NCBI RefSeq assembly: GCF_013364235.1
Contig: NZ_CP054919.1
Coordinates: 3,400,103 to 3,464,102 of the forward strand
Origin: Kitasatospora sp. NA04385
GTDB taxonomy: Bacteria > Actinomycetota > Actinomycetes > Streptomycetales > Streptomycetaceae
Direction of reading: 5' to 3'
Length of the DNA stretch: 64,000 nt
The notes beneath the pieces are model-generated. The model did no database searches. It had not been told where the DNA came from and was given only the letters and a program-made list of their open reading frames with translations. A program made the position numbers and the translations under genes. Shown one piece after another: positions 17,895 to 29,975 of this stretch (positions are counted from its first letter, which is position 1; every line of letters starts with the position of its first letter).

Positions 17895-17909
17895 TGACCT
17901 GTAGGTTCC
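17895..17909. repeat. Left transposon end: target duplication plus terminal repeat
   Basis: TGACC (17895-17899, target duplication) followed by TGTAGGTTCC (17900-17909, terminal inverted repeat). The same ten bases occur inverted at 28644-28653, again followed by TGACC. A probable TnsB-site copy, TTCCCAGTGATCTTGCG, lies 58 bp inside (17958-17974). Confidence 0.9.
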
Positions 17910-18097
17910 AATCGTGATCTTCATTCGGCTTCAGCCTGAGCTGGGCTGTTGTCGCCCTTCCCAGTGATCTTGCGCGGGTTTTGACCCATCTTCTTTGCGT
18001 TTCCTCACTGGCAGGGTGGGCAGGCCGTCACTGTGTACTCACTGAAGTGCCCCGGCAGGTACGGGATTGCCGGGCTCCGTCGTGGATCTTGCGACGT

Positions 18098-18700
18098 CTA
18101 CCTGGGCGAGTCCGCGAGTGCGCACAGCTCATCGATGAATCGGCTCGGCGGCGAGGGCTTGAACTGGGCGTCGTTCCACTGGTGCCACATGCCTCCGGGG
18201 GCGAGGAGACGGCTGGCGCGGTCGGTTCCCGCCTGACTGTCGATGTGGAGGAGCGCGCTGATGGCCCAGTGCTGGTCGTACTGGCAGTCGGGCTGTTGGA
18301 GATAGCGTTCCAGGTAGGCCACCAGGTGCAGGGCATCTTCCTCCGTGCAGAAGCGTGCGAGAGCGAAGCAGTAGCCCTGACCGGAGAAGCACAGCTGGCT
18401 GGCGAGAAGCAGGTCACCCAGCACGTCTCGGAAGTGCTGCCGGCGGTCCACACCGATCAACCAGGCAGCGGTGAGGCGGGAGCGCCATTCGCTCTCCAGG
18501 AGGATTTCGAGTTCCTCATCGGTGATCGCCTGAGCAGCTGAGCGCAGTGACTGGAGGAAGGGTGTGCGCTCACGCTCGTCGTCACGGGCGAAGTTGGCGT
18601 GAAGGAGGTGGAGGTAGCGCCCGGTGTCGTTGGTTATGGGCTTGACGTAGCGCTCGATGACATCGAGCAGTTCGGGGTCCGAGGGGCGAGGAAAGCGCAT
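18098..18700 (-). CDS. DUF6000 family protein (transposon cargo)
   Basis: 200 residues from ATG 18700 (GGGAAG upstream). All-helical, with DPELLDVIERYVKPITNDTG, ITDEELEILLESEWRSRLTA, AAWLIGVDRRQHFRDVLGDL and a C-terminal GTDRASRLLAPGGMWHQW, which I recognise as DUF6000. The repeated helices resemble HEAT-like repeats. Function is not known for the family. It is the outermost cargo gene next to the left transposon end, leftward, divergent from the next small gene. Confidence 0.75.
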   Translation of the reverse strand: MRFPRPSDPELLDVIERYVKPITNDTGRYLHLLHANFARDDERERTPFLQSLRSAAQAITDEELEILLESEWRSRLTAAWLIGVDRRQHFRDVLGDLLLASQLCFSGQGYCFALARFCTEEDALHLVAYLERYLQQPDCQYDQHWAISALLHIDSQAGTDRASRLLAPGGMWHQWNDAQFKPSPPSRFIDELCALADSPR

Positions 18701-18824
18701 GTCGGCATCTTCCCGTTCGCCATTGGTCTGCGGCCAACTGATTCTGAGGCTGGCTCGGGGTGGGACCGTCAGCCCACGGGCAGGACTCTTCCCCACATCG
18801 CCGAAGCTGGGCAATGATCTGCTC

Positions 18825-19082
18825 ATGGATGACCTCCTGAAGTTCCTCCACACCCGCTACGAGGCGGACAATCATGCCTATGCCGAGGTGGCTTACCGCT
18901 TCGGGGCTGACGCCCTGCTTGACAGCCACCTGCCGATGCTCGACCTCGTCGACATGCTGGCCCGGGACTACGAGGCAATGGATTCGTCCGACGCGCGCTT
19001 CGCCGGCCTCGGCCATGCCTTGCGCGTGCTCGTACAGTCGTACGCCGAACACCCCGGCTACCGGGCGGAGTGGCGACCCTAG
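18825..19082 (+). CDS. Small DUF6221-like protein (transposon cargo)
   Basis: 85 residues, acidic and helical: MDDLLKFLHTRYEADNHAYA at the start and VLVQSYAEHPGYRAEWRP at the end. The ends match the pattern of DUF6221 proteins (MDDL-x-FL start, YADHP-Y-x-x-EW end), a small Streptomyces family of unknown role, though the middle is divergent. ATG 18825 chosen from the family-like start; the ribosome site is weak. Faces the next cargo gene across a hairpin. Confidence 0.6.
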   Translation: MDDLLKFLHTRYEADNHAYAEVAYRFGADALLDSHLPMLDLVDMLARDYEAMDSSDARFAGLGHALRVLVQSYAEHPGYRAEWRP

Positions 19083-19109
19083 AACCTGGTCCAAGTAGGT
19101 CCGGGAATG

Positions 19110-19161
19110 TCACAAAATCAGCTACCGAGCCCACTCATCGGCTCCGTCGATGATCTTGTGA
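19110..19161. terminator. Bidirectional hairpin between cargo genes
   Basis: Outer arms TCACAAAATCA (19110-19120) and TGATCTTGTGA (19151-19161), one mismatch, enclose inner arms GAGCC (19127-19131) and GGCTC (19140-19144). It sits between convergent genes ending at 19082 and 19223. Confidence 0.5.
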
Positions 19162-19222
19162 TGGCTCTCGCCCCGGAGAGCCTCAGCCCGGTTCCGCCCC
19201 GTGGTCAGTAGGTGTAGCCGGG

Positions 19223-19963
19223 TCAGTGTGGATCGTTCCAGCGGGCGGGCCCGGTGAGGCCGATCAGCCTCAGGCGTTGGAGCAGGTCGGCGGGGGCGTT
19301 GGACGCTCTCAGTCGAGCGGGGGCATGGCGGGTGAGCCAGGCGGTGAGAACCGCCAGCTTCTCGTCCTTGTCGTACCAAGTGCTCCAGGGGAGTTCGTCG
19401 GCGAGCAGGTCGTAGTCCCACGTGTCGACGGCCTCTGCGAGGTTCCGATCGGCGGTCGGGTGCTCCAGCGTCTCCCAGACGTCGAGCCAGGGACTCAGCT
19501 CGCCGGACGCCTCGACGCACATGGCGAGGGTCAGCGAGGTGTGCCCGACGGGGCCAGCGGTGACAAGGCTGTGGGCCCAGAACGCGTGCAGGAACTCCCA
19601 CACGGCCGCGGCCTGTTTCCGGGGCCATTCCTGCCAGTCCGCTCGGGCGAGCGAGACGCCGATGTCGTCCCGGTACCCGAACGACTCCGATCGGCTGTCG
19701 AGGAGAGCGCCGGCGAGCTGAGGCAGGATGCGGCGGAGCACCGAGGCGTGGTCGCGCCAGTCCGACGGCTGCCAGGCCCGCCGGAGAAGGTCGGGGTCGA
19801 GCCTCACGTCCGGCACCTTGAGAAGGGCGAGCTCCTCCGCACTGCCCCAGTGGCACTCGCAGTTGAACTCCTCGGGCTGCGCAACCGCTCCGCGGAAGAC
19901 TGCGAGGCCCTCCAGGGCCGCGTCGAGGCGAGCCTTTGCACGTCGAGCGTGAACCTCGGTCAT
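19223..19963 (-). CDS. Conserved hypothetical protein (transposon cargo)
   Basis: 246 residues, soluble, Trp-rich and helical. FNCECHWGSAEELALLKVPD near residue 33 holds a Cys-x-Cys-x-His cluster that could bind metal; SFGYRDDIGVSLARADWQEW and LDVWETLEHPTADRNLAEAV follow. No named domain recognised, though I recall similar proteins in Streptomyces. Start ATG 19963 with GAAGG upstream. Its role in the element cannot be inferred. Confidence 0.65.
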   Translation of the reverse strand: MTEVHARRAKARLDAALEGLAVFRGAVAQPEEFNCECHWGSAEELALLKVPDVRLDPDLLRRAWQPSDWRDHASVLRRILPQLAGALLDSRSESFGYRDDIGVSLARADWQEWPRKQAAAVWEFLHAFWAHSLVTAGPVGHTSLTLAMCVEASGELSPWLDVWETLEHPTADRNLAEAVDTWDYDLLADELPWSTWYDKDEKLAVLTAWLTRHAPARLRASNAPADLLQRLRLIGLTGPARWNDPH

Positions 19964-20267
19964 CGGCGTCTGCCTTCACGTACTCCGCGGGAGCGCGCCC
20001 GCGAAGATCCCTACGCTACCGGCCGCCGGGAGGATGCGCCCCAGCAGGGCTGCCCTCATCTGCGGCTGGCTCACTGCCGCAGGTTGCGGCAGACGGCGTC
20101 ACAGGATCAGCGACAGAGCCACTGACGCGGCTCAGCTCAAGGCTTCTGCCACGATGTGGGAGTGGAAGCTGGGGCATGAAGTGACTGGCCGACCCGCGCG
20201 ACGCAGACTTATGGCGGGCCCGAGACAACTTGCCGGCCCGCCGAGTCCAGTGCTGCGAGCGGAAGGA
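19964..20267. other. Gene-free interval inside transposon
   Basis: 304 bp between two leftward cargo genes. I see no family-like frame, tRNA or strong hairpin. It should carry the promoter of the gene starting at 19963. Confidence 0.4.
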
Positions 20268-21101
20268 TCACTGGGCCGAAACAGGAACCTGCCGTCGTGA
20301 GAGAGCCAGCCTTCGCCGTTCTCGGTCAAGGTCGATGACGACGACCGAGACTGCGTCGCCGACCTGGATCACGTCCTCTGGTGTCTTCACGGGCGTCCAT
20401 GCGAGCTCGTCGAGGTGGACCAGTCCCTCGATCCCGTCGGCCACCTGGACGAAAGCGCCGAATGGAATCAGCTTGGTGACGACTCCGCGCAATGTCTGAC
20501 CCACCGCATGGCCGTCAGCGAAGACCTGGAAGGGATCCGGCTTCATCGCTCGCAAGGACAGCCGGGCCTCTCCGTTCCAGGTGTCGAACTGAAGGAACTC
20601 GCAAGAGACGTGCTCCCCGACCTGCACGATGTCCGATGCTGCTTCGAAACGGCTCCAGGAGAGTTCGGGGATCGTGATGAATCCGACGCCGGGGAAGACC
20701 GGGTGGTCAGGGCCGTCGTCCAGTGCCACGAACACGCCGAACGACTCGATGGCCGCGATCGTGCCGGAGAGGATCTCGCCACGGTCGAGTCGGTTCAGAA
20801 ACGTCCAGAGTTCCGGGTTCTCGGTGGCGGCCAGTGACAGCCGGACGTGGCCTCCTTCCAGGTCGACGGCGAGCACTTCGGCAGTGATCCGCTGACCGAC
20901 CTGAACGGCTTCGGCCCGAGGCCGTCCCCAAGGCAGGTCGAGCGGCCAGACGGACCCCAGCGGCTTGGCGGTGAATCCGTCCAGCGTCACCGCCACCCCA
21001 TGGGAGCGGGTGATCTCGGTTGCCACCCCGCTGCATAGGTCACCTACGTGGATCGTTGACAGAAAGCTCCCTATAGCTTGATCGTCCGACGCTTCATCCA
21101 T
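20268..21101 (-). CDS. Triple S1-domain RNA-binding protein (transposon cargo)
   Basis: 277 residues with three S1 motifs: about 19-91 (degenerate), 108-184 (GEILSGTIAAIESFGVFVAL) and 201-270 (GQTLRGVVTKLIPFGAFVQV, then EGLVHLDELAW and VGDAVSVVVIDLDRERRRLA LS). S1 domains bind single-stranded RNA; this protein has no nuclease or other catalytic domain. ATG 21101 follows AAAGG. Related stand-alone S1 proteins occur in Streptomyces chromosomes, so it may have been captured as cargo. Whether it acts on ribosomes, as ribosomal protein S1 does, is not known. Confidence 0.85.
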   Translation of the reverse strand: MDEASDDQAIGSFLSTIHVGDLCSGVATEITRSHGVAVTLDGFTAKPLGSVWPLDLPWGRPRAEAVQVGQRITAEVLAVDLEGGHVRLSLAATENPELWTFLNRLDRGEILSGTIAAIESFGVFVALDDGPDHPVFPGVGFITIPELSWSRFEAASDIVQVGEHVSCEFLQFDTWNGEARLSLRAMKPDPFQVFADGHAVGQTLRGVVTKLIPFGAFVQVADGIEGLVHLDELAWTPVKTPEDVIQVGDAVSVVVIDLDRERRRLALSRRQVPVSAQ

Positions 21102-21321
21102 GACGGCAGCCTTTCACGGAGGCAGTACGTCGGCTTGAAAACTCGCTCTACCCGGAGGCTTGAGGGGACCTGCCCCGAACGGTGGCTCTTCTCGATGCGG
21201 ATGCGGGTTCGCGAGCCTTGCCACTCACGGCAGCGCTGTCGTCCGGTGCCGCAATAATCCGTGCATGCTGATGATGAGTTCTGGGGCAGGGATGCCCTTC
21301 CGACGGACGACGAAGCCACAG

Positions 21322-21594
21322 ATGAGTGCGGCGATAGCCAACCTGCAACCAGGTCGAGCGGTCGTCGTGGAGCGCTCTGACGGCCAGGCTCCTGGTGACT
21401 AGTACGTGCAGGTGCTCATGCGGCAGGACAATACGTTCCAGTTGGAGTACCGGGACGGGACACCCAGCCAGCACTATCAGACGCGGACGGTGTCGCGCGA
21501 GAAGGTTGTGGACGCCGTGCTCGGCTGGGCGAAGAACGATCCGACCTGGAAGGACGCGTTCATGTGGAACAACATCGGCTCCTACTTCGAGTAG
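21322..21594 (+). pseudogene. Small hypothetical gene with in-frame TAG (transposon cargo)
   Basis: From ATG 21322 the frame reads 26 residues (MSAAIANLQPGRAVVVERSD and on to GD), meets TAG at 21400-21402, then continues without another stop through YVQVLMRQDNTFQLEYRDGT to WNNIGSYFE at 21594. The two halves fit one 90-residue protein, the second half looking strongly conserved. GTG 21406 directly after the stop could restart translation of a 62-residue piece, but has no ribosome site of its own. Convergent with tniQ, whose stop is 22 bp away. A nonsense mutation is the simplest reading. Confidence 0.65.
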
Positions 21595-21615
21595 GGACCG
21601 ACGAGCTCATCCATC

Positions 21616-24603
21616 TCATCCATCCGTTCGCGACTGGGCACGTTCGCGCGTGCGCCGACGGGTCGGCCAACGGGCGATCTCGTGAAGGATCGCGTCTCGT
21701 CCGGCTGAGGTGAGTCGGTAGTAGGTACGGCGGCGTCCGGGGCCGCGTCCTGGGGTGGCTCTGGAATTCCAGGACGCGTCGTCTTCGACTCGGTTGGTGA
21801 TCCAACCTGCCGCCTGTAGGCGGTGGAGTTGTTCGTAGATGTTTCCGGGGTCGCGCTTGAGCCGGTCGATGACGAGCGCGCCGTAGCATTCCCCATCGCT
21901 GTGGGTCATGAGGTCCTTGAGCAGAGCGAGCATCGCGGCGGTGATTCGGAGCCTGGTGACGGGGATCTCCGTGAACGGGCTGACGGAGCGACGCGGCCGG
22001 GGGAATTGCTGTTGGGCCGCAGCTGCCTGGTGTTCCGCGAGTCTGTCGAGCTCGTGGTCGGCGATGGACTTGGCCATTTGACTTCGGATGTGTGGCTTCT
22101 CCAGATGGTCGAGGAGCCGCCTTCCTCGCTTCGTCGGTTGCTGCGGTGTGCCCCCTGTCGAGCGGACGAAGATCTCGGCGCCGATGTCGCGTTCGAGGCG
22201 TTGAAACTGGACGACGAGTGTTCGGGGCGGGATGCCAAGATGCTCGGCCGCTGCTTTGAGGGTCGGGAAGACCATGGCGATCTGAAAGCGGTGCAGTCTC
22301 TCCCAGCCGCCGAGGCTTCCTTCAACGGCGGCTCGGATGTCCTTTGCAAGCCGACCGTCCAAGCGATTGATCATCTGCTCCGAGCTGTGGATACCTGGCG
22401 GGCGGGGCGTAACCCCCAGCCGGTGCAGTGCGTTGTTGACAGTCATCTGGGTGGTTCCGAGTTCCTCCGCGATGGTGCTCGTCGACTTCCGCTGCCCGTG
22501 ATACTGGTCGCGAAGCCAGGCGGGGTCGTTGATGGCCGGCGCTTTGCCCTTGTTGAGGGGAATCTTGTGCGAGCGGGCGGCTTGGGCGAGGAGGGATCGG
22601 CTGAACCCGGTCTCGGCGGCGAGGTCATGGAGGGTGCGGTTCGCGCCCACGTATTCGTGTTCGAAGAAGTCCCGTGTGGCGATCCGGGGCATGGCCTGTC
22701 GGCGCTTCCAGGACTGGGGCAGGGCGCGGGGGCTCCAATCCCGCTCGGGCCGGTCGAGGTGTTGGAGCGCGAGTGCGACGTGTTCGACGTGGACGCCCAG
22801 GACTTCGGCCGCCTCGCTGACGGGCCGCTGGTCTTCGATCACGATCCGGCGGATCGTCGTGGTGTCCAGCGTGGACGGGAGTGCTCCGGGCAGCGTCAAT
22901 CCGTGGGCGAGATCCAGGGGCGGTGACCAGGTCACCGGTTCGTCGATCTCCAGGTCGTCCAGGATCCGCTGGGCGTGCCCGGCGAGAGCCGACCGCAGGG
23001 GCAGAGTGAGTTGGTGGGTGAACGTTACGTAGCGGCTGTGGTCGGAGCTGCCGGTGAAGCCGAATCGGTGCCCGTCCACGCCGAGGTCCGCGCCTGTCAG
23101 CAGCTGCAGGAGATGGCGTTGGGCGTGCAGGTGGCGGCCGCGGGCAGTCTGGTCGTCGCGGGGGCTCTTTCCCGGGTGGAAGCCGGCTTCGCAGGCCAGG
23201 TCCCGCCATTGCGGCCAGGTGATCAGCGAGTGTGCGGGAATCCGCTCGCGGCGTCGCTGGTAGTCGATCGGAGAGCCGCAGGTGTCCAGGTAGTCGGCTA
23301 TGCGGCAGAACGCGGCCAGAACATCGGTGAGGCCGGACTCGGGCAGATCGCCGAAGCTCTGGAGGAGGACGCTGAGGTGGGCGGAGGTGACGCGGCGGTT
23401 GAAGTGAGTGGTCAGGTCTCTGTAGGCACGTTCGGACGACCCGGGTATCAGCAGGCATGTGGCTGCGGTCGCACGGAAAAGCTCGGACCGGAAGCCCGAT
23501 CGGAGTGGCAGTAGGAGGCCGGCCCAGTCCGGCCAGATCAGGTGCGGGATGTGCCGCCCCCTTGTCTCGGCCGTGCGGTTGCCGGGCTTTCCCGCCTGCG
23601 GGGTGGGCGATTTGAATCTCAACCGGTCCATGGGGGTCATGTCGGTATCGATCGATTGCAGGAAGCGGTTCGGGAACGGTCCCTTCATCGTCTTCCACCG
23701 GTGGAAGTTCATCCCTGCAGGCACGACTCCGGTCCGTGTACGACGTCCGCTGGAGAGTTCGCGCACGGCGGCGACTCCGGCTTCGTGATCGGCACCGAGA
23801 ACAGTCCGGGCCATGTCGAGCACGACCGCGACCAGGGGAGCGTCCGCCTTCGGCAGCCGCCCGTTCAGCACGAGCAGGGTGGTCCGAGCGCGGCCCGGTG
23901 CGAGTTCGGCGGCACGGGCCTGCCAGTCGGTTCCCTCGTGGCCCATCAGCCAGTAGGCGACGGCAGGGAGTTCATCCAGCGTGATCGCGGAGTCCAGGTC
24001 GCCGTTCCGGTCAGCGTCCCGCTGGAGGCCGTCGATCCAGTCCTGGGCTTCCAGGGCGACCTGGGGAGCCGGGATTCCCGAAAGCGCGGCCAGGTCGGTG
24101 CCGCAGCGCGTGCTCCGATGTTGAGGCTGGTAGGCGCACGTCCCTGGTGGAAGTTCCTCGGTTCCGCCGGGCAGGTAGACCCTCAGTGTCCTCGCGCAGG
24201 ACGGGCAGCTATCGAGTAGCAGAAGGCGGTGACGGGTGCAGGCGACCGCCCAGTTGGACCGCCAAGCGAGCAGCCATCGGCCGCCGTTCTCGCCCAGACA
24301 GACCGGACAGAACCTCGTGCCGCCGCCGACGAGCGTCATCCTCATTGCCTGACCTGCAAGTTGGACGGAGCGAAGTCCTCCCTCGGGCATGCCGGCCACA
24401 CATTCCATCCGCCGCCAGGACTCCTCGGGAGTGGCCTTGATCAGGCGGTGGATCGAACGTGCGCGCTCGGGAAGACCGAGTGCGGGCAACAACTGGCTTG
24501 GGGAAAGCCGGTGTCTGCGGGCCAGTTCCTCGATCCAGGAGTCCACGCTCTCGCCGTCGATCGGGGCGGCCCTGAGCGGAACCGTGTTCACGTCGCCGGT
24601 CAC
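21616..24603 (-). CDS. tniQ: TniQ/TnsD-type target selector with extra winged-helix domains
   Basis: 995 residues. An N-terminal TniQ domain with zinc-finger Cys/His sets (FCPVC at about 98-102, then CTRH and CPSC) is followed by a long helical body, two homeodomain-like HTH units (LHDLAAETGFSRSLLAQAAR; STIAEELGTTQMTVNNALHR), a LysR-type HTH (LKAAAEHLGIPPRTLVVQFQ, then IGAEIFVRSTGG), and at the C terminus a PadR-like winged helix (LALLKDLMTHSDGECYGALV, then GNIYEQLHRLQAAGWI and RTYYRLTSAGRDA). TniQ/TnsD proteins bind the attachment site and recruit the TnsC ATPase. Ordinary TniQ proteins are 300-500 residues; this one is large-TnsD-sized. GTG 24603 overlaps the tniB stop (GTGA), so it is the last gene of the coupled operon. 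Confidence 0.88.
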   Translation of the reverse strand: MTGDVNTVPLRAAPIDGESVDSWIEELARRHRLSPSQLLPALGLPERARSIHRLIKATPEESWRRMECVAGMPEGGLRSVQLAGQAMRMTLVGGGTRFCPVCLGENGGRWLLAWRSNWAVACTRHRLLLLDSCPSCARTLRVYLPGGTEELPPGTCAYQPQHRSTRCGTDLAALSGIPAPQVALEAQDWIDGLQRDADRNGDLDSAITLDELPAVAYWLMGHEGTDWQARAAELAPGRARTTLLVLNGRLPKADAPLVAVVLDMARTVLGADHEAGVAAVRELSSGRRTRTGVVPAGMNFHRWKTMKGPFPNRFLQSIDTDMTPMDRLRFKSPTPQAGKPGNRTAETRGRHIPHLIWPDWAGLLLPLRSGFRSELFRATAATCLLIPGSSERAYRDLTTHFNRRVTSAHLSVLLQSFGDLPESGLTDVLAAFCRIADYLDTCGSPIDYQRRRERIPAHSLITWPQWRDLACEAGFHPGKSPRDDQTARGRHLHAQRHLLQLLTGADLGVDGHRFGFTGSSDHSRYVTFTHQLTLPLRSALAGHAQRILDDLEIDEPVTWSPPLDLAHGLTLPGALPSTLDTTTIRRIVIEDQRPVSEAAEVLGVHVEHVALALQHLDRPERDWSPRALPQSWKRRQAMPRIATRDFFEHEYVGANRTLHDLAAETGFSRSLLAQAARSHKIPLNKGKAPAINDPAWLRDQYHGQRKSTSTIAEELGTTQMTVNNALHRLGVTPRPPGIHSSEQMINRLDGRLAKDIRAAVEGSLGGWERLHRFQIAMVFPTLKAAAEHLGIPPRTLVVQFQRLERDIGAEIFVRSTGGTPQQPTKRGRRLLDHLEKPHIRSQMAKSIADHELDRLAEHQAAAAQQQFPRPRRSVSPFTEIPVTRLRITAAMLALLKDLMTHSDGECYGALVIDRLKRDPGNIYEQLHRLQAAGWITNRVEDDASWNSRATPGRGPGRRRTYYRLTSAGRDAILHEIARWPTRRRTRERAQSRTDG

Positions 24604-25664
24604 CTGCCGGCCCCTTCCTTCTTCCGTACCCGCTTCTTGGTCTCAGCGGCGCGGCGTTTCCGGGAACGCTCCGCGGCTTCGTCGATCCGGATTGTCTCCA
24701 GCAGTTCTCGGCTCAGCGACTCGGTCCCGTTCGCGATGGCTTTGAAGCACCCTCGGGTGACCAGGGTGATCAACGAGCCAATGTGTCCGCCGGTCCGCTC
24801 GAACAGGTAGTCGTCCAGGGCGACCAGCTTGCCCGGCCGTGCCTTGGCCAGGATCAGCTGCTTCTCGATCGCTTTGATGAGTCCGGTCCAGCTGTCGTCC
24901 CGGTCGAACGACGCGACCTCCAGGCGGGTCCAGCGGGCTGCGGTCTGGGCGAGTGCGGTGGACTCACCCGACAGGCCCTCGTCGAAGAACCGGCGTTCGG
25001 TCAGCCCGACGCCCGCGTAGATGAACGTGACGGGCAGTTCGTTGGCCAGCCACTTCAGGTGGTTGCTGACCGCCAAGCCGTCCTTGCTGTTCTGGTTGAT
25101 GAAGTGGACGTCGTCGATGATCCCGATGCGGGTCTCGCATTTGAGGACGCAGTCCAGTGCGAAGGTCGCGAGCTGGGCGGCGGTGCCGTTGGCCGCGCCG
25201 GGATGCCCGTAGAACTCGCAGATCATCTTGTTCAGGGTCCGCAGGGTGGTGTTCGAGGTCAGGCCGACCCGGAAGACCGGTATCCGTTCGTCGCCCGCTT
25301 CGGTGGTCTCGCCGCCCAACTGGCGGGCGGTCCGGTCGTAGTCGCGTGCGAACAGGTTCGCCATTGTCGTCTTCCCCAGGCCGGGGAATCCGTCGATGAC
25401 CGCCGCTCCGCGGACCCGGTCGCTGTCCTGCCGGTTCGAGGCGACGATGAGTTCCAGTTCCTCGCGGACCTGCTTGAGCTGCGGCGTTGCGATCGTGCCG
25501 AAGTTCGCGTGCCAGTCGTGCCGGGAATCGTTGTAGTGGGCGCGTTCGAGCGGTGCGAGGCGGGTCAGCGCGGTTGGCGACATCCGCTCCGGCCGTGTCC
25601 GGGCCGGTGTGTCGGTGAAGCGGCGCCAGCCCTGCTTGCGCGAGAGGCTGTAGGCGGTGGTCAC
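24600..25664 (-). CDS. tniB: TniB/TnsC-type AAA+ ATPase
   Basis: 354 residues. Walker A GFPGLGKTT at 92-100 and Walker B IIDDVHF at about 182-188, with the arrangement of TniB: a basic N-terminal tail, then HYNDSRHDWHANFGTIATPQ before the P-loop, and a Lys/Arg-rich C terminus. In Tn7-like systems this ATPase bridges the target selector and the transposase and imposes target immunity. GTG 25664 overlaps the tniA stop (GTGA) and its own stop overlaps the tniQ start, indicating balanced translation of the set. Confidence 0.93.
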   Translation of the reverse strand: MTTAYSLSRKQGWRRFTDTPARTRPERMSPTALTRLAPLERAHYNDSRHDWHANFGTIATPQLKQVREELELIVASNRQDSDRVRGAAVIDGFPGLGKTTMANLFARDYDRTARQLGGETTEAGDERIPVFRVGLTSNTTLRTLNKMICEFYGHPGAANGTAAQLATFALDCVLKCETRIGIIDDVHFINQNSKDGLAVSNHLKWLANELPVTFIYAGVGLTERRFFDEGLSGESTALAQTAARWTRLEVASFDRDDSWTGLIKAIEKQLILAKARPGKLVALDDYLFERTGGHIGSLITLVTRGCFKAIANGTESLSRELLETIRIDEAAERSRKRRAAETKKRVRKKEGAGR

Positions 25665-27694
25665 TCCAGCACCTCCAGCGCGTCGTCGTAGTAGCCGTCG
25701 ATGTCGTCGAACAGCTCGTCCTCGCTGTCGCCGTCGCCCTCCAGCTGAGGACTGGAGCTCTGTGCGGGCAGCCGGGTCGGGAAGTCGTCATCCTGGGCGG
25801 CGGGCGGCAGCGGGGTACCGGAGCGCTCAGCGGACAGGCGGGCTGCCATCCGGCGTTCGCGCCGGTCCAGGACCTGCCCGTTGTCCCAGCGCTGGAGGAC
25901 CTGCTTGAGCGCGGCCACTGGGTCGGTGAAGCGATCGTTCCGAGCTGCAAGCGCACGGGCGTACTGGGCGGCCTCTGCCGAGAACGCGGTGCCCAACATG
26001 GGTGTGTGCTCCCACTCCAGGCAGTGCCAGGACCCGTCGGCCGGTTCCTGGAAGTAGACCGAGCGCACGTCCTCGTCGTTCACGCGGATCGGCCACTTGC
26101 CGGCCTGGATCCCGCCGTAGGGGCTGGCCTGGTTGCGGTGCCCGTCAAGGGCGGGCCCGTTGTAAAGCAGCCCGTTCACCTCGACGCCGTAGTGCTGGAT
26201 CGTCCGCCAGGCCACCCGGTGGAACTCCAGCGCGAGCTCGGGCCGAGCGGGCAACCGCAGACGCCCCGCCTTGCCGACACCGAGAGTGAACATCTCGTTC
26301 GGCGACAAGGCCAGACCCGGCCACTCCGGGATGGTGAGACCGTCGTGCTTGCCGGTGTGGTGGACGGTGACGATCCAATCGCGAATCACGTCCTCCAACT
26401 CGTGCAAGAACAGGAACGCCTGCTCTTCCAGCCCGATCCCCCGGCTGTGCAGGTCGGGCCCCTTGTAGGCGGGAAGGTGCTGGATCAACCCCTCCCGCAG
26501 AGTCCTGAAGAACCGCTCGACAGTGGGCTTGTCGGTCGGCTTCTTCGGCTGGGCGGGCTGGATGGAGATGCCCAGCCGCGCGCAGACTCCGATGACATGC
26601 GACGACAGGAACGCCTTCCCATGGTCGACGACGAGTGCCTCCGGCAGGCACCACGATTCCTCGGCCCCGTGCTCGGTGAACACCAGCCGCTGCGGGACTC
26701 CGTGCGGCGACCCCAGCACGGACCGTCCACCACTGCGACCGGTGATCGACTCGAACAGCACGCCGGCGACGTCGACGGCCTTGGTGGATACCGGTGTCAC
26801 CCTCAGCCCCAGGATCTGCCGGTCGAAGAGATCCTGGGCGACTGTCAGCTGAGCACGTACCCAGCGGCAGGTGACTGGCTCCATCGCAAACACGTCCAGG
26901 TCCTGAGTGTCCAGGATCAGCTACTCGCCCGGACGGGTCGCCCGCAGCCGTCCGTAGGTTCCCTGCGGGCGGGAAGCGATCGACCGTCGGCCCTTCGCCG
27001 AACCGGACACGGCATTGCGGCCCTTGGCCAGCTCCGCCAGCCGCCGGTAGGCCGTCGTCTTCGGCGGAACCTGGACGGCGCCTTCGCCGTGTTCGCGTTC
27101 CAGACGCTCCGCGACCCGCAGCAGGACCGCGCTCCGGGTGGGTGTCGACGCGTCCACCCCGGCGGCCAACTCCGCCAGCACTGCCGCGTCCCAGCGCGGA
27201 TCGACCGAGCTGCGGCGCCCGGTCCGCTTCCGCTCGTCCACCAGCGCGGCCTCGCCGGAGGCCCGGTACGCGGACACCCAGTTCTCCACCGTCCTGACCG
27301 AGACCTTCAGCTCGGCAGCCTTCGCCGCGTACTTGTCTTTCAGCGCCGCCTCCGGGGCGAATTGCGGACGCGGTTCACCCGGCCTTGCCGACTCCGCGTG
27401 ACCGGCGGCAAAGCCTGTCAGGACCTCGCGAACGTGCCCGGCGCGAGCAGTCACCTTCTCCCGCTCGTCCGCCGACAGGCCGGCCAGCACCAACCCGGGG
27501 TCGTCGGCGTCCACGGGCCCGGACCCCACTCCGCGGGCCCGAGCCACGAGCTCCGCCAGTGTCAGAGTGCGGTAGCCGCCGTCGCCGAGCGCACGCACCA
27601 TCACCGACCGGCCGTCGAACTCGACAACCTGAACCGGGTCTCCATCGAGCAGCAGCGTCGCCCCAGCCACAATCGTGACAACATGCCCGTTCAC
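25661..27694 (-). pseudogene. tniA: TniA/TnsB-type DDE transposase interrupted by in-frame TAG
   Basis: 678 codons from GTG 27694 in one frame, with TAG as codon 258 (26923-26921). Before it: a leader domain and an HTH (KAAELKVSVRTVENWVSAYR). After it: LILDTQDLDVFAM with the first catalytic Asp, ALVVDHGKAF with the second, and TVERFFRTLREGL with the Glu, in an rve-type catalytic core, then a Mu-like beta-barrel and an acidic tail that would contact TniB. Related enzymes read GEY-LVLDTQ here, so TAC to TAG is likely. A restart at GTG 26893 would lose the first catalytic Asp. The gene overlaps tnsA upstream and tniB downstream by 4 bp each, so nothing else is disrupted. Confidence 0.88.
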
Positions 27695-28464
27695 GCCACC
27701 ACCCCCAGCCGGACCTGGGTGGCGCCGCCCAGTGGGCGCGACAGATCCGCCAGCAGCCAGCCGCGCCAGAGCAGATGCAGGATCACCGGCCGGATGACGG
27801 CCGCCTCCCCCATCCCGGGCAGCGACCGCTCAAGGTGCGCGACCGGAACCGGCTCGTCCACGGCACCGATAACCGCCTCGGTCAGCTCTGGGTCGATCAT
27901 CGCGTCGCGGCGGTAGCCGGCCAGGAAGCGCACGTTCTCCAGCAGCACCGGGTCGGCTGAGGACCACACCTCGAAGTCCCAGCCCCTAGCGTGGGCCAGG
28001 CGCTCAGTCCACGCGAACTGTCTGGCCACCTTCGGATCGTCGAGGCGGTACGCGGCCTTCACGTCCACCACGGCCACCGAGCCGTCCGCACGGCCGAGCA
28101 ACAGATCAGGAACATGCCGACGTGTACGGCTGCCATCGGACCACTCAAGCCAGAACGGCTGAGCAGCGATCGAGACGACCTGCGGATCATGGTCGGCCAG
28201 CAGGATACGAGCCAACTCCAACCGGCTCTCGTAGACCACGTGCCCACCCGTCGTCGCCGACCAGTACCACCCCGAGTAGCACTGCCGACCCGCGAACCAG
28301 CGCATCTCCCGCACCGGCAGGCCCGCCAGAACGTCGTCGACCGACACCCGATCCAAGGAGGTGTCCACGAAGGCACCGCTCTCACCGCGGTAGCGCACCG
28401 CCACATCAGAGGCCGACGGCACGGATATGCCCTCGGTGATTAGAACATCAGACCAGCCAGTCAT
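27691..28464 (-). CDS. tnsA: TnsA-like endonuclease
   Basis: 257 residues from ATG 28464 (GGGAG upstream). The TnsA nuclease domain spans about 75-140: HVVYESRLELARILL (catalytic Glu about 79), RRHVPDLLL (Asp 120) and SVAVVDVKA (Lys 136), a restriction-enzyme-like E-D-x-K site. TnsA cuts the 5' strands so that the element moves by cut-and-paste rather than by cointegrates; its presence separates this element from Tn5053-type tniABQ transposons, which lack it. First gene of the operon, 190 bp from the right terminal repeat. Confidence 0.88.
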   Translation of the reverse strand: MTGWSDVLITEGISVPSASDVAVRYRGESGAFVDTSLDRVSVDDVLAGLPVREMRWFAGRQCYSGWYWSATTGGHVVYESRLELARILLADHDPQVVSIAAQPFWLEWSDGSRTRRHVPDLLLGRADGSVAVVDVKAAYRLDDPKVARQFAWTERLAHARGWDFEVWSSADPVLLENVRFLAGYRRDAMIDPELTEAVIGAVDEPVPVAHLERSLPGMGEAAVIRPVILHLLWRGWLLADLSRPLGGATQVRLGVVA

Positions 28465-28643
28465 GGCGCGACCATCTCCCGCCCGACGGACCGGGGCGGG
28501 GCGAACCGGCTTCAGATCACCCGTGATGGTGAAGAATCGAGGAATCGGTAGGCGCGCCCGCCGAACCGCCCCCTCACCGCCCCATTGATCTTGCACACAC
28601 GCAAGGTAGACGCAGATTCAGTGGGAAAGCGCACGGAGAAATG

Positions 28644-28658
28644 GGAACCTACATGACC
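28644..28658. repeat. Right transposon end: terminal repeat plus target duplication
   Basis: GGAACCTACA (28644-28653) is the exact inverse of the left terminus, followed by TGACC (28654-28658). A probable TnsB-site copy lies 26 bp inside (28611-28627; reads TTCCCACTGAATCTGCG inward). The duplication ends 9 nt before the stop codon of the NlpC/P60 gene. Confidence 0.9.
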
Positions 28659-28667
28659 GCCGGGTGC

Positions 28668-29975
28668 TCAGGGGCGGGCGTAGAAGTCCGGCCGTCCCAT
28701 GATCCAAAGGCTGGCCTGCTTGATGGCCGTGCCGGGGCGGGGGGCCTCGATCATCTGGTCGTCGCCGAGGTAGATGGCGACGTGGTAGATGTCGGCGGCG
28801 CGGCCGGTCTTGGTCCAGAACACCAGGTCTCCGGGGCGGAGTTGGGCGTAGCTGACCGGGGTGGACTCGGCGTACTGGTCGGCGGCGAAGTGGGTGAGCG
28901 CCTTGCCGCCGCGGCGCCAGGCCATCATGGTCAGGCCGGAGCAGTCGTAGCCCCCCGGGCCCTCGCCGCCCCAGATGTAGGGCAGGCCGACGACGGAGCG
29001 GGCGAAGGCGAGGGCGGCCGCGGAGCCGCCCGCCGACCAGGCGCTCTCGCGCTGCTGCGGGACGGCGTGGTGCCGGGCCGCCTCGGCGGCGGCCGCGGCG
29101 GCGGCCCGCTGCTCGGCCTCGGCCTGGGCCCGGCGGGCGGCCTCCTCGGCCTCGCGGGCGGCGATCGCGTCGAGCGCCTCCTGCCGCTGCCGTTCGAGTT
29201 CGACGGTGGTGTTGCGGGCGGTGGCGAGTTCGGCGAGCAGGGTCTCCCGGCGGGCGGCGGTCTCGGTGACCTTGGCCTGCTGCTCGGTGACGCGCCGCTG
29301 GGCCTGCTCCTTGGCGGTGCGGACCGCCCCGGCGGCGGCGCGGGCGGTGTCCTCGGCGGCGCGGGCCTCGTCGGCGGCGCGGGCGGCGGCCTTCGCGGTG
29401 GAGGTGGCGTCGTCGAGGATCTGCCTGGTCCGGGCTCCGGCGGTGCCGACGGCGGCGGCCCGGCCGGACAGCGAGGCGGTGCCGCGCGGGTCCAGCAGGG
29501 CGTTGACGGCCGAGAGCTGCGGGGTGGCGCCCTGCCGGTAGATCTCGGCGAGCAGTTCGGCGGCCCGGTCGGCGGCCTCGGTCCGGTCGGCTTCGGCGGC
29601 GGTCGAGCGCGCGGCGGCGCCCCTGGAGGCCTCCTCGGCCCGGCCGAGCCGGACCAGCGCGCCGTTGTACGCCTCGACGGCCTGTTCGGCGCTCTGCCCG
29701 GCCTGCTCCAACTCCCGCTGGGCGGCGGCCAGTCGTGCTTCGACGGCGGCGGTGTCGGCGGCCTTGGCGTCCGCGTCGGCGCGGGCCCGGTCGACGTCCT
29801 CGGCGGAGGGGAAGTCGGGCTGCGGCGGGTCGTCGGCGGGCCGGGCGGCGCGGACGGCCTCGGGGGCGCCCGCGGGGGCGGCCTCGGGGGCGGCGGCGGG
29901 GGCGTTCGCGGCCGGGAGCAGGGCGAGCACGGCGGCGGTGGCGAGGAGGAGGGTGGGGAGGAGCCTGCGCGGCAT
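28668..29975 (-). CDS. Secreted NlpC/P60 cell-wall hydrolase with coiled coil
   Basis: 435 residues. A signal peptide (RR start, LLPTLLLATAAVLALLPAAN) is followed by a low-complexity Ala/Pro stretch, a long coiled coil rich in Ala, Glu and Arg (about 55-310), and a C-terminal NlpC/P60 domain. Catalytic Cys 345 lies in GYDCSGLTM and His 398 in IYHVAIYLGDD. RipA-like enzymes of this plan cleave peptide crosslinks in peptidoglycan and the coiled coil is thought to restrain or position the enzyme. Start ATG 29975. The 3' end abuts the transposon insertion, which leaves the coding sequence intact. Confidence 0.92.
   Translation of the reverse strand: MPRRLLPTLLLATAAVLALLPAANAPAAAPEAAPAGAPEAVRAARPADDPPQPDFPSAEDVDRARADADAKAADTAAVEARLAAAQRELEQAGQSAEQAVEAYNGALVRLGRAEEASRGAAARSTAAEADRTEAADRAAELLAEIYRQGATPQLSAVNALLDPRGTASLSGRAAAVGTAGARTRQILDDATSTAKAAARAADEARAAEDTARAAAGAVRTAKEQAQRRVTEQQAKVTETAARRETLLAELATARNTTVELERQRQEALDAIAAREAEEAARRAQAEAEQRAAAAAAAEAARHHAVPQQRESAWSAGGSAAALAFARSVVGLPYIWGGEGPGGYDCSGLTMMAWRRGGKALTHFAADQYAESTPVSYAQLRPGDLVFWTKTGRAADIYHVAIYLGDDQMIEAPRPGTAIKQASLWIMGRPDFYARP

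Follow-up and report, generated by a model that had tools for sequence, protein, structure and literature searches.

The window analysed here (the whole stretch of 64,000 nucleotides, G000:C1:3400103-3464102, from a genome of 8.4 Mb assembled as a single contig) contains a Tn7-like transposon with defined ends and a 5-bp target duplication, located directly behind an nlpC/P60 peptidoglycan hydrolase gene. The features of the element and its insertion site are as follows (window coordinates, with the basis of each assignment in brackets):

17895-17899, no strand: left target-site duplication TGACC (sequence)
17900-17909, plus strand: left terminal repeat TGTAGGTTCC (same ends in relatives)
17960-17974 and 17985-17999, plus strand: two tentative TnsB-box-like repeats CCCAN7TGCG of the left end (motif picked post hoc)
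18098-18700, minus strand: cargo, DUF6000 protein (PF19463)
18825-19082, plus strand: cargo, DUF6221-like protein (PF19730, C-terminal match only)
19223-19963, minus strand: cargo, protein without a family match (Pfam/NCBIfam profiles)
20268-21101, minus strand: cargo, S1-domain protein resembling part of ribosomal protein S1 (Pfam/NCBIfam profiles)
21418-21594, plus strand: cargo, 58-aa ORF (read by eye)
21616-24603, minus strand: tniQ/tnsD, 995 aa, predicted target selector (PF06527, fold model)
24600-25664, minus strand: tnsC, TniB-type AAA+ ATPase (PF05621)
25661-27694, minus strand: tnsB DDE transposase, interrupted (profile match and in-frame TAG)
26921-26923, minus strand: in-frame TAG, codon 258 of tnsB (Tyr/Phe codon in close relatives)
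27691-28464, minus strand: tnsA endonuclease (PF08722, NF033179)
28611-28625, minus strand: one tentative TnsB-box-like repeat of the right end (motif picked post hoc)
28644-28653, minus strand: right terminal repeat of the TGTAGGTTCC/GGAACCTACA pair (exact inverse of the left)
28654-28658, no strand: right target-site duplication TGACC (sequence)
28668-29975, minus strand: nlpC/P60 peptidoglycan hydrolase gene, proposed attachment gene (PF00877)
28731-28748, minus strand: EAPRPG motif codons, 77 bp away from the right end; TniQ presumably reads a sequence that includes or adjoins them

The element is 10.75 kb long, and its matching terminal repeats and the TGACC on both sides are placed exactly as the original prediction had described them. 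The search proposed there for elements with the same ends in other genomes revealed relatives with such ends and perfect 5-bp duplications at other loci; therefore, the ends and the duplication represent more than a chance match. A 15-mer occurs three times in the element ends, compared with a maximum of two in shuffled sequences, the CCCAN7TGCG motif itself having been chosen post hoc.

Profile searches (Pfam/NCBIfam) revealed the gene order tnsA-tnsB-tnsC-tniQ, with all four genes on the minus strand and with overlapping junctions, in agreement with the operon that had been predicted. TnsA matches the NF033179 family TnsA_like_Actin (6.7e-78) and PF08722 (2.2e-8), and the E...D...VDVK pattern is visible in its sequence; the TnsC/TniB protein matches PF05621 (5.4e-12), and TniQ matches PF06527 (7.1e-15). 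In TniQ, the TniQ domain (~9-129) is accompanied by a LysR-type (~763-830) and a PadR-type (~879-975) winged helix-turn-helix. TniQ/TnsD chains are among the best PDB fold matches of its structure model (mean pLDDT 81), although these matches are weak (best E 3.5e-3). No cas genes were found among the searched ORFs of the element, which is thus not classed as a CRISPR-associated transposon (CAST). The remaining coding capacity comprises about five small cargo ORFs, as expected from the prediction, and no defence families were found among these genes.

The right end of the element, on the tnsA side, is located 14 bp beyond the stop codon of the nlpC/P60 gene, one of 11 NlpC/P60 genes in total in this genome. 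In the element of Actinocrinis (G124), at first the nearest full relative, the end lies 13 bp past the stop codon of a different NlpC/P60 gene. We measured how far the element end lies from the final codon of the NlpC/P60 AP[RK]xG motif in 13 insertions with a related TniQ and obtained 78.5 +/- 1.27 bp (range 77-81); these values are not all independent, as a common target type occurs in several Streptomyces. For the same 13 insertions, the stop-to-end distance was 10.8 +/- 5.9 bp, because the tails of the NlpC/P60 proteins have 18-24 residues. The individual motif-to-end distances were as follows:

77 bp: window element, S. wuyuanensis, S. cyaneus
78 bp: G360, G405/S. lomondensis, G419, G125, GESEQ-4
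79 bp: Actinocrinis, S.PB5 (remnant)
80 bp: R. opacus, Acrocarpospora
81 bp: M. inaquosa (remnant)

Perfect 5-bp duplications were present in G419 (CGTAT), G405 (TGCCT), G125 (GTAAG), R. opacus (CAAGT), Acrocarpospora (AACGG), GESEQ-4 (GCTTC) and S. cyaneus (CGTGG), while no left ends with a matching duplication were found for the G360 and Actinocrinis elements. The orientation of insertion is fixed, with the tnsA side (right end) facing the target gene. No invariant DNA word is common to all targets, and at locus L194 the NlpC/P60 gene to the left has no element end nearby. In the Actinocrinis genome, 4 bp separate the left end of the full element from a tns-less segment (L033 386-3824) that has a left and a right end of its own and encodes a ParB-like and one other ORF, so that tandem ends occur at one attachment site; on one contig of the same genome (L039), two additional complete tns sets of different types are arranged in tandem.

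The AP[RK]xG anchor was chosen after the first few cases had been viewed, and plasmid records, which were not used in finding the distance rule, provided a later check. All plasmid insertions showed a motif-to-end distance of 76-83 bp and a perfect 5-bp duplication:

R. jostii RHA1 pRHL3 (intact element of 7 kb): 79 bp, CCTGC
R. pseudokoreensis R79, two plasmids: 83 bp, CAAGC, and 80 bp, ATAGA
DK17 pDK3 and pDK1: 79 bp, TCAGT, and 80 bp, CAAGT
S. virginiae: 76 bp, GGTGG

In R. pseudokoreensis R79, elements that are 100% identical are located behind two different NlpC/P60 genes. The pDK1 and pDK3 copies of DK17 are 99.5% identical, and the pDK1 site seems to be the same as that in R. opacus. 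The Rhodococcus targets, except on the R79 plasmid unnamed4, encode M23-SLT-NlpC/P60 proteins, whose domain make-up and neighbours suggest that they belong to conjugation systems. Because the NlpC/P60 domain occurs both in chromosomal hydrolases and in the M23-SLT-NlpC/P60 hydrolases of large plasmids, one selector could serve a chromosomal site as well as plasmid transfer.

Which component of the machinery does the target go with? In the TniQ tree, all nlpC-associated elements that were placed in it fall within one 19-row clade (SH-aLRT 100), and the 40 other loci considered all lack an NlpC/P60 gene on the tnsA side. The elements of Acrocarpospora (L215) and G125 (L205) combine a TniQ of this clade with a TnsB from another well supported clade and are still located at nlpC. 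As judged from these sequence comparisons, the target goes with TniQ and not with TnsABC. Insertion at a specific site and in a specific orientation behind the conserved gene was observed across the TniQ clade, apart from some exceptions. The element of S. wuyuanensis, located at nlpC, recurs with 99.8% DNA identity at an unrelated place in Streptomyces CCM_MD2014 (L187/L220; 28,457 bp), where it is flanked by a perfect CCCGC duplication and no nlpC is present at the site; thus, targeting is not absolute. In Nocardia alder85J, N. africana and N. NBC_01377 (L234, L217 and L268), the element is located behind a gene for a TraG/VirB4-like ATPase, and one element of this kind in Dactylosporangium is located behind another gene than nlpC. 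Since those TniQs of these exceptions that were placed in the tree fall inside the nlpC-associated clade, the target seems to have changed within it.

An uninterrupted site was identified for the S. lomondensis element: in G537, another genome of the genus of S. lomondensis, the joined flanks align with 89% identity over 476 bp, although the duplication region itself has diverged. For the window element, the same flank joining revealed no orthologous Lrp-nlpC junction in 29 loci of the window's own genus. The Lrp gene to the left of the element has no nlpC neighbour in the nearest relatives, and the only Lrp-like trace beside nlpC is a 39-aa stretch in G060. Most of the 60 nlpC loci examined in the window's genus lack an element, and three carry tns-less mini-elements:

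L106 17894-18711: 818 bp, NUDIX-like cargo (by eye), perfect duplication ACCGT
L134 15080-16237: 1,158 bp, SMI1/KNR4-like cargo (by eye), perfect duplication GCGGG
L094 17039-18377: 1,339 bp, GNAT-like cargo (by eye), duplication one base off

Over ~100 bp, the 818-bp mini-element and the window element have closely similar left ends. An end-like 11-mer was found at 76-80 bp in 6 of the 60 loci (0.13 expected); the corresponding p-value of 4e-9 is optimistic, as the pattern and the distance were known before the test. Stop codons had inflated a simple count of CCTACR near nlpC, for which the fixed-distance test was substituted.

These mini-elements may have been mobilised in trans by a related TnsABC-TniQ set, and the window copy could be too. 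We regard this as a tentative addition to the main interpretation, not an alternative to it, with the balance of probability somewhat against it. It is consistent with the left ends of the G055 and G014 mini-elements, whose sequence resembles that of the window element's left end, and with the location of the mini-elements at the same site with 5-bp duplications; nevertheless, no tns genes were found near them up to ~55 kb out, and they could be internal deletions left after the insertion of one full element.

Another important question is whether the window copy can still move. Codon 258 of its tnsB is a TAG located in the RPGE-Y-xxxDT motif, directly ahead of the first catalytic Asp; in the alignment, the equivalent codon encodes Tyr in nearly all relatives, Phe in L034 and Val in L052, the latter being a distant and poorly aligned TnsB. 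Because tnsB stops before the catalytic residues and no second TnsB was found in the genome, the window copy is, judging from its sequence and barring a sequencing error at the TAG, probably immobile by its own means now. Alternatively, the TAG may be such an error, or translation may continue through it, and the element would then be active. In favour of this, tnsB is otherwise an open and well-conserved frame, tnsA, tnsC and tniQ are intact, and only one assembly stands behind the TAG; against it, this assembly is a single contig and no relative has a stop at that position. We therefore consider an active element unlikely, with a chance that is still appreciable. The tnsB genes of close relatives are intact. 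Thus, of the "complete" element with cut-and-paste movement in the original prediction, the Tn7-like character and the defined ends stand, whereas the uninterrupted transposase does not and present-day movement is doubtful: the family has an intact DDE transposase, and this copy is defective. The prediction had also missed both the TAG and the specific target adjacent to nlpC/P60.

Taken together, the data make it highly probable that this is a Tn7-like element that is directed to NlpC/P60 genes by its ~1000-aa TniQ/TnsD and inserts in a fixed orientation behind chromosomal nlpC/P60. By analogy with TnsD at glmS, TniQ would bind the conserved DNA around the codons of the NlpC/P60 catalytic site and then recruit TnsC, whereupon TnsA and TnsB would excise the element and join it ~78 bp downstream. 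This joining would generate the 5-bp duplication and leave the host nlpC gene intact, again as with TnsD at glmS, and the longer spacing would fit the larger TniQ protein. There is an even chance, in our estimation, that a single TniQ, combining its TniQ domain with LysR/PadR-type heads, reads the catalytic-site codons for both the chromosomal site and access to plasmids, the work of TnsD and TnsE in one protein.

The same distribution could in principle be produced by selection, if insertion were random and only elements in harmless spots behind nlpC survived. The intergenic site and the intact nlpC gene agree with such a scenario. However, selection would not be expected to hold an internal coding motif at a constant distance when the stop distance varies from 5 to 26 bp, and insertions by elements with a different TniQ are not at this site, which makes this explanation very improbable. 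Least probable of all is that the element is an ordinary Tn7-like transposon with little target preference and a coincidental nlpC neighbour, which one element of the clade at an unrelated place (G328) would suit, but which more than ten separate insertions at the same fixed distance in several families, identical elements at two NlpC/P60 genes within one strain and the presence of just 11 NlpC/P60 genes in this 8.4-Mb genome contradict.

Compared with Tn7 and attTn7 (PMC2918618), the targeting element described here shares TnsABC with a TniQ-family selector, the 5-bp duplication, insertion downstream of a conserved gene with the right end adjoining it and, presumably, the recognition of active-site codons. 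In Tn7, TnsD at glmS binds conserved active-site codons, and insertion takes place ~25 bp further on (PMC2918618), whereas the corresponding codons of nlpC/P60 are ~78 bp from the insertion. The window target is nlpC/P60 instead of glmS, the selector of ~990 aa contains LysR- and PadR-type domains, and no TnsE was seen in the element. The attachment sites listed in a 2024 review (glmS, parE, tRNA genes, yhiN and comM; PMC11406308) follow the same logic, and none of them is an NlpC/P60 gene.

The claim that such elements are little described in Streptomycetaceae was only partly right, since relevant descriptions already exist, namely, those of Benler 2021 (PMC8649781), the NCBIfam family TnsA_like_Actin and Tn7706 (PMC12915292). 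Benler 2021 delimited thousands of Tn7-like elements, including one clade that is dominated by Actinobacteria and has no characterised member, and in the accessible portion of that paper (PMC8649781) no attachment gene is named for it. The window element very probably belongs to the same broad clade, with which it shares tnsA-tnsB-tnsC-tniQ. Tn7706 of Rhodococcus erythropolis, described with its ends, is a Tn7-like element that is similar, by description only, in its tnsA, tnsB, tniB and tniQ genes, inverted repeats and plasmid location, and different in length (19.4 kb vs 10.75 kb; PMC12915292, accessible text), with no target rule given there. A Tn7-like attachment site at NlpC/P60 was not found in the literature searched, subscription papers and supplements lying outside the search. 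Thus, Tn7-like transposons of actinobacteria were already known, while the nlpC/P60 attachment site is apparently new within this literature.

A natural site-specific integrator that inserts behind an unharmed gene could serve as a tool in Streptomyces and Rhodococcus. For a large branch of Tn7-like elements in antibiotic-producing and pollutant-degrading actinobacteria that has not been characterised, the findings offer an attachment site that can be tested; they also suggest how elements with cargo only come to accumulate at a single chromosomal location and that it is the selector, not the transposase, that carries the address.
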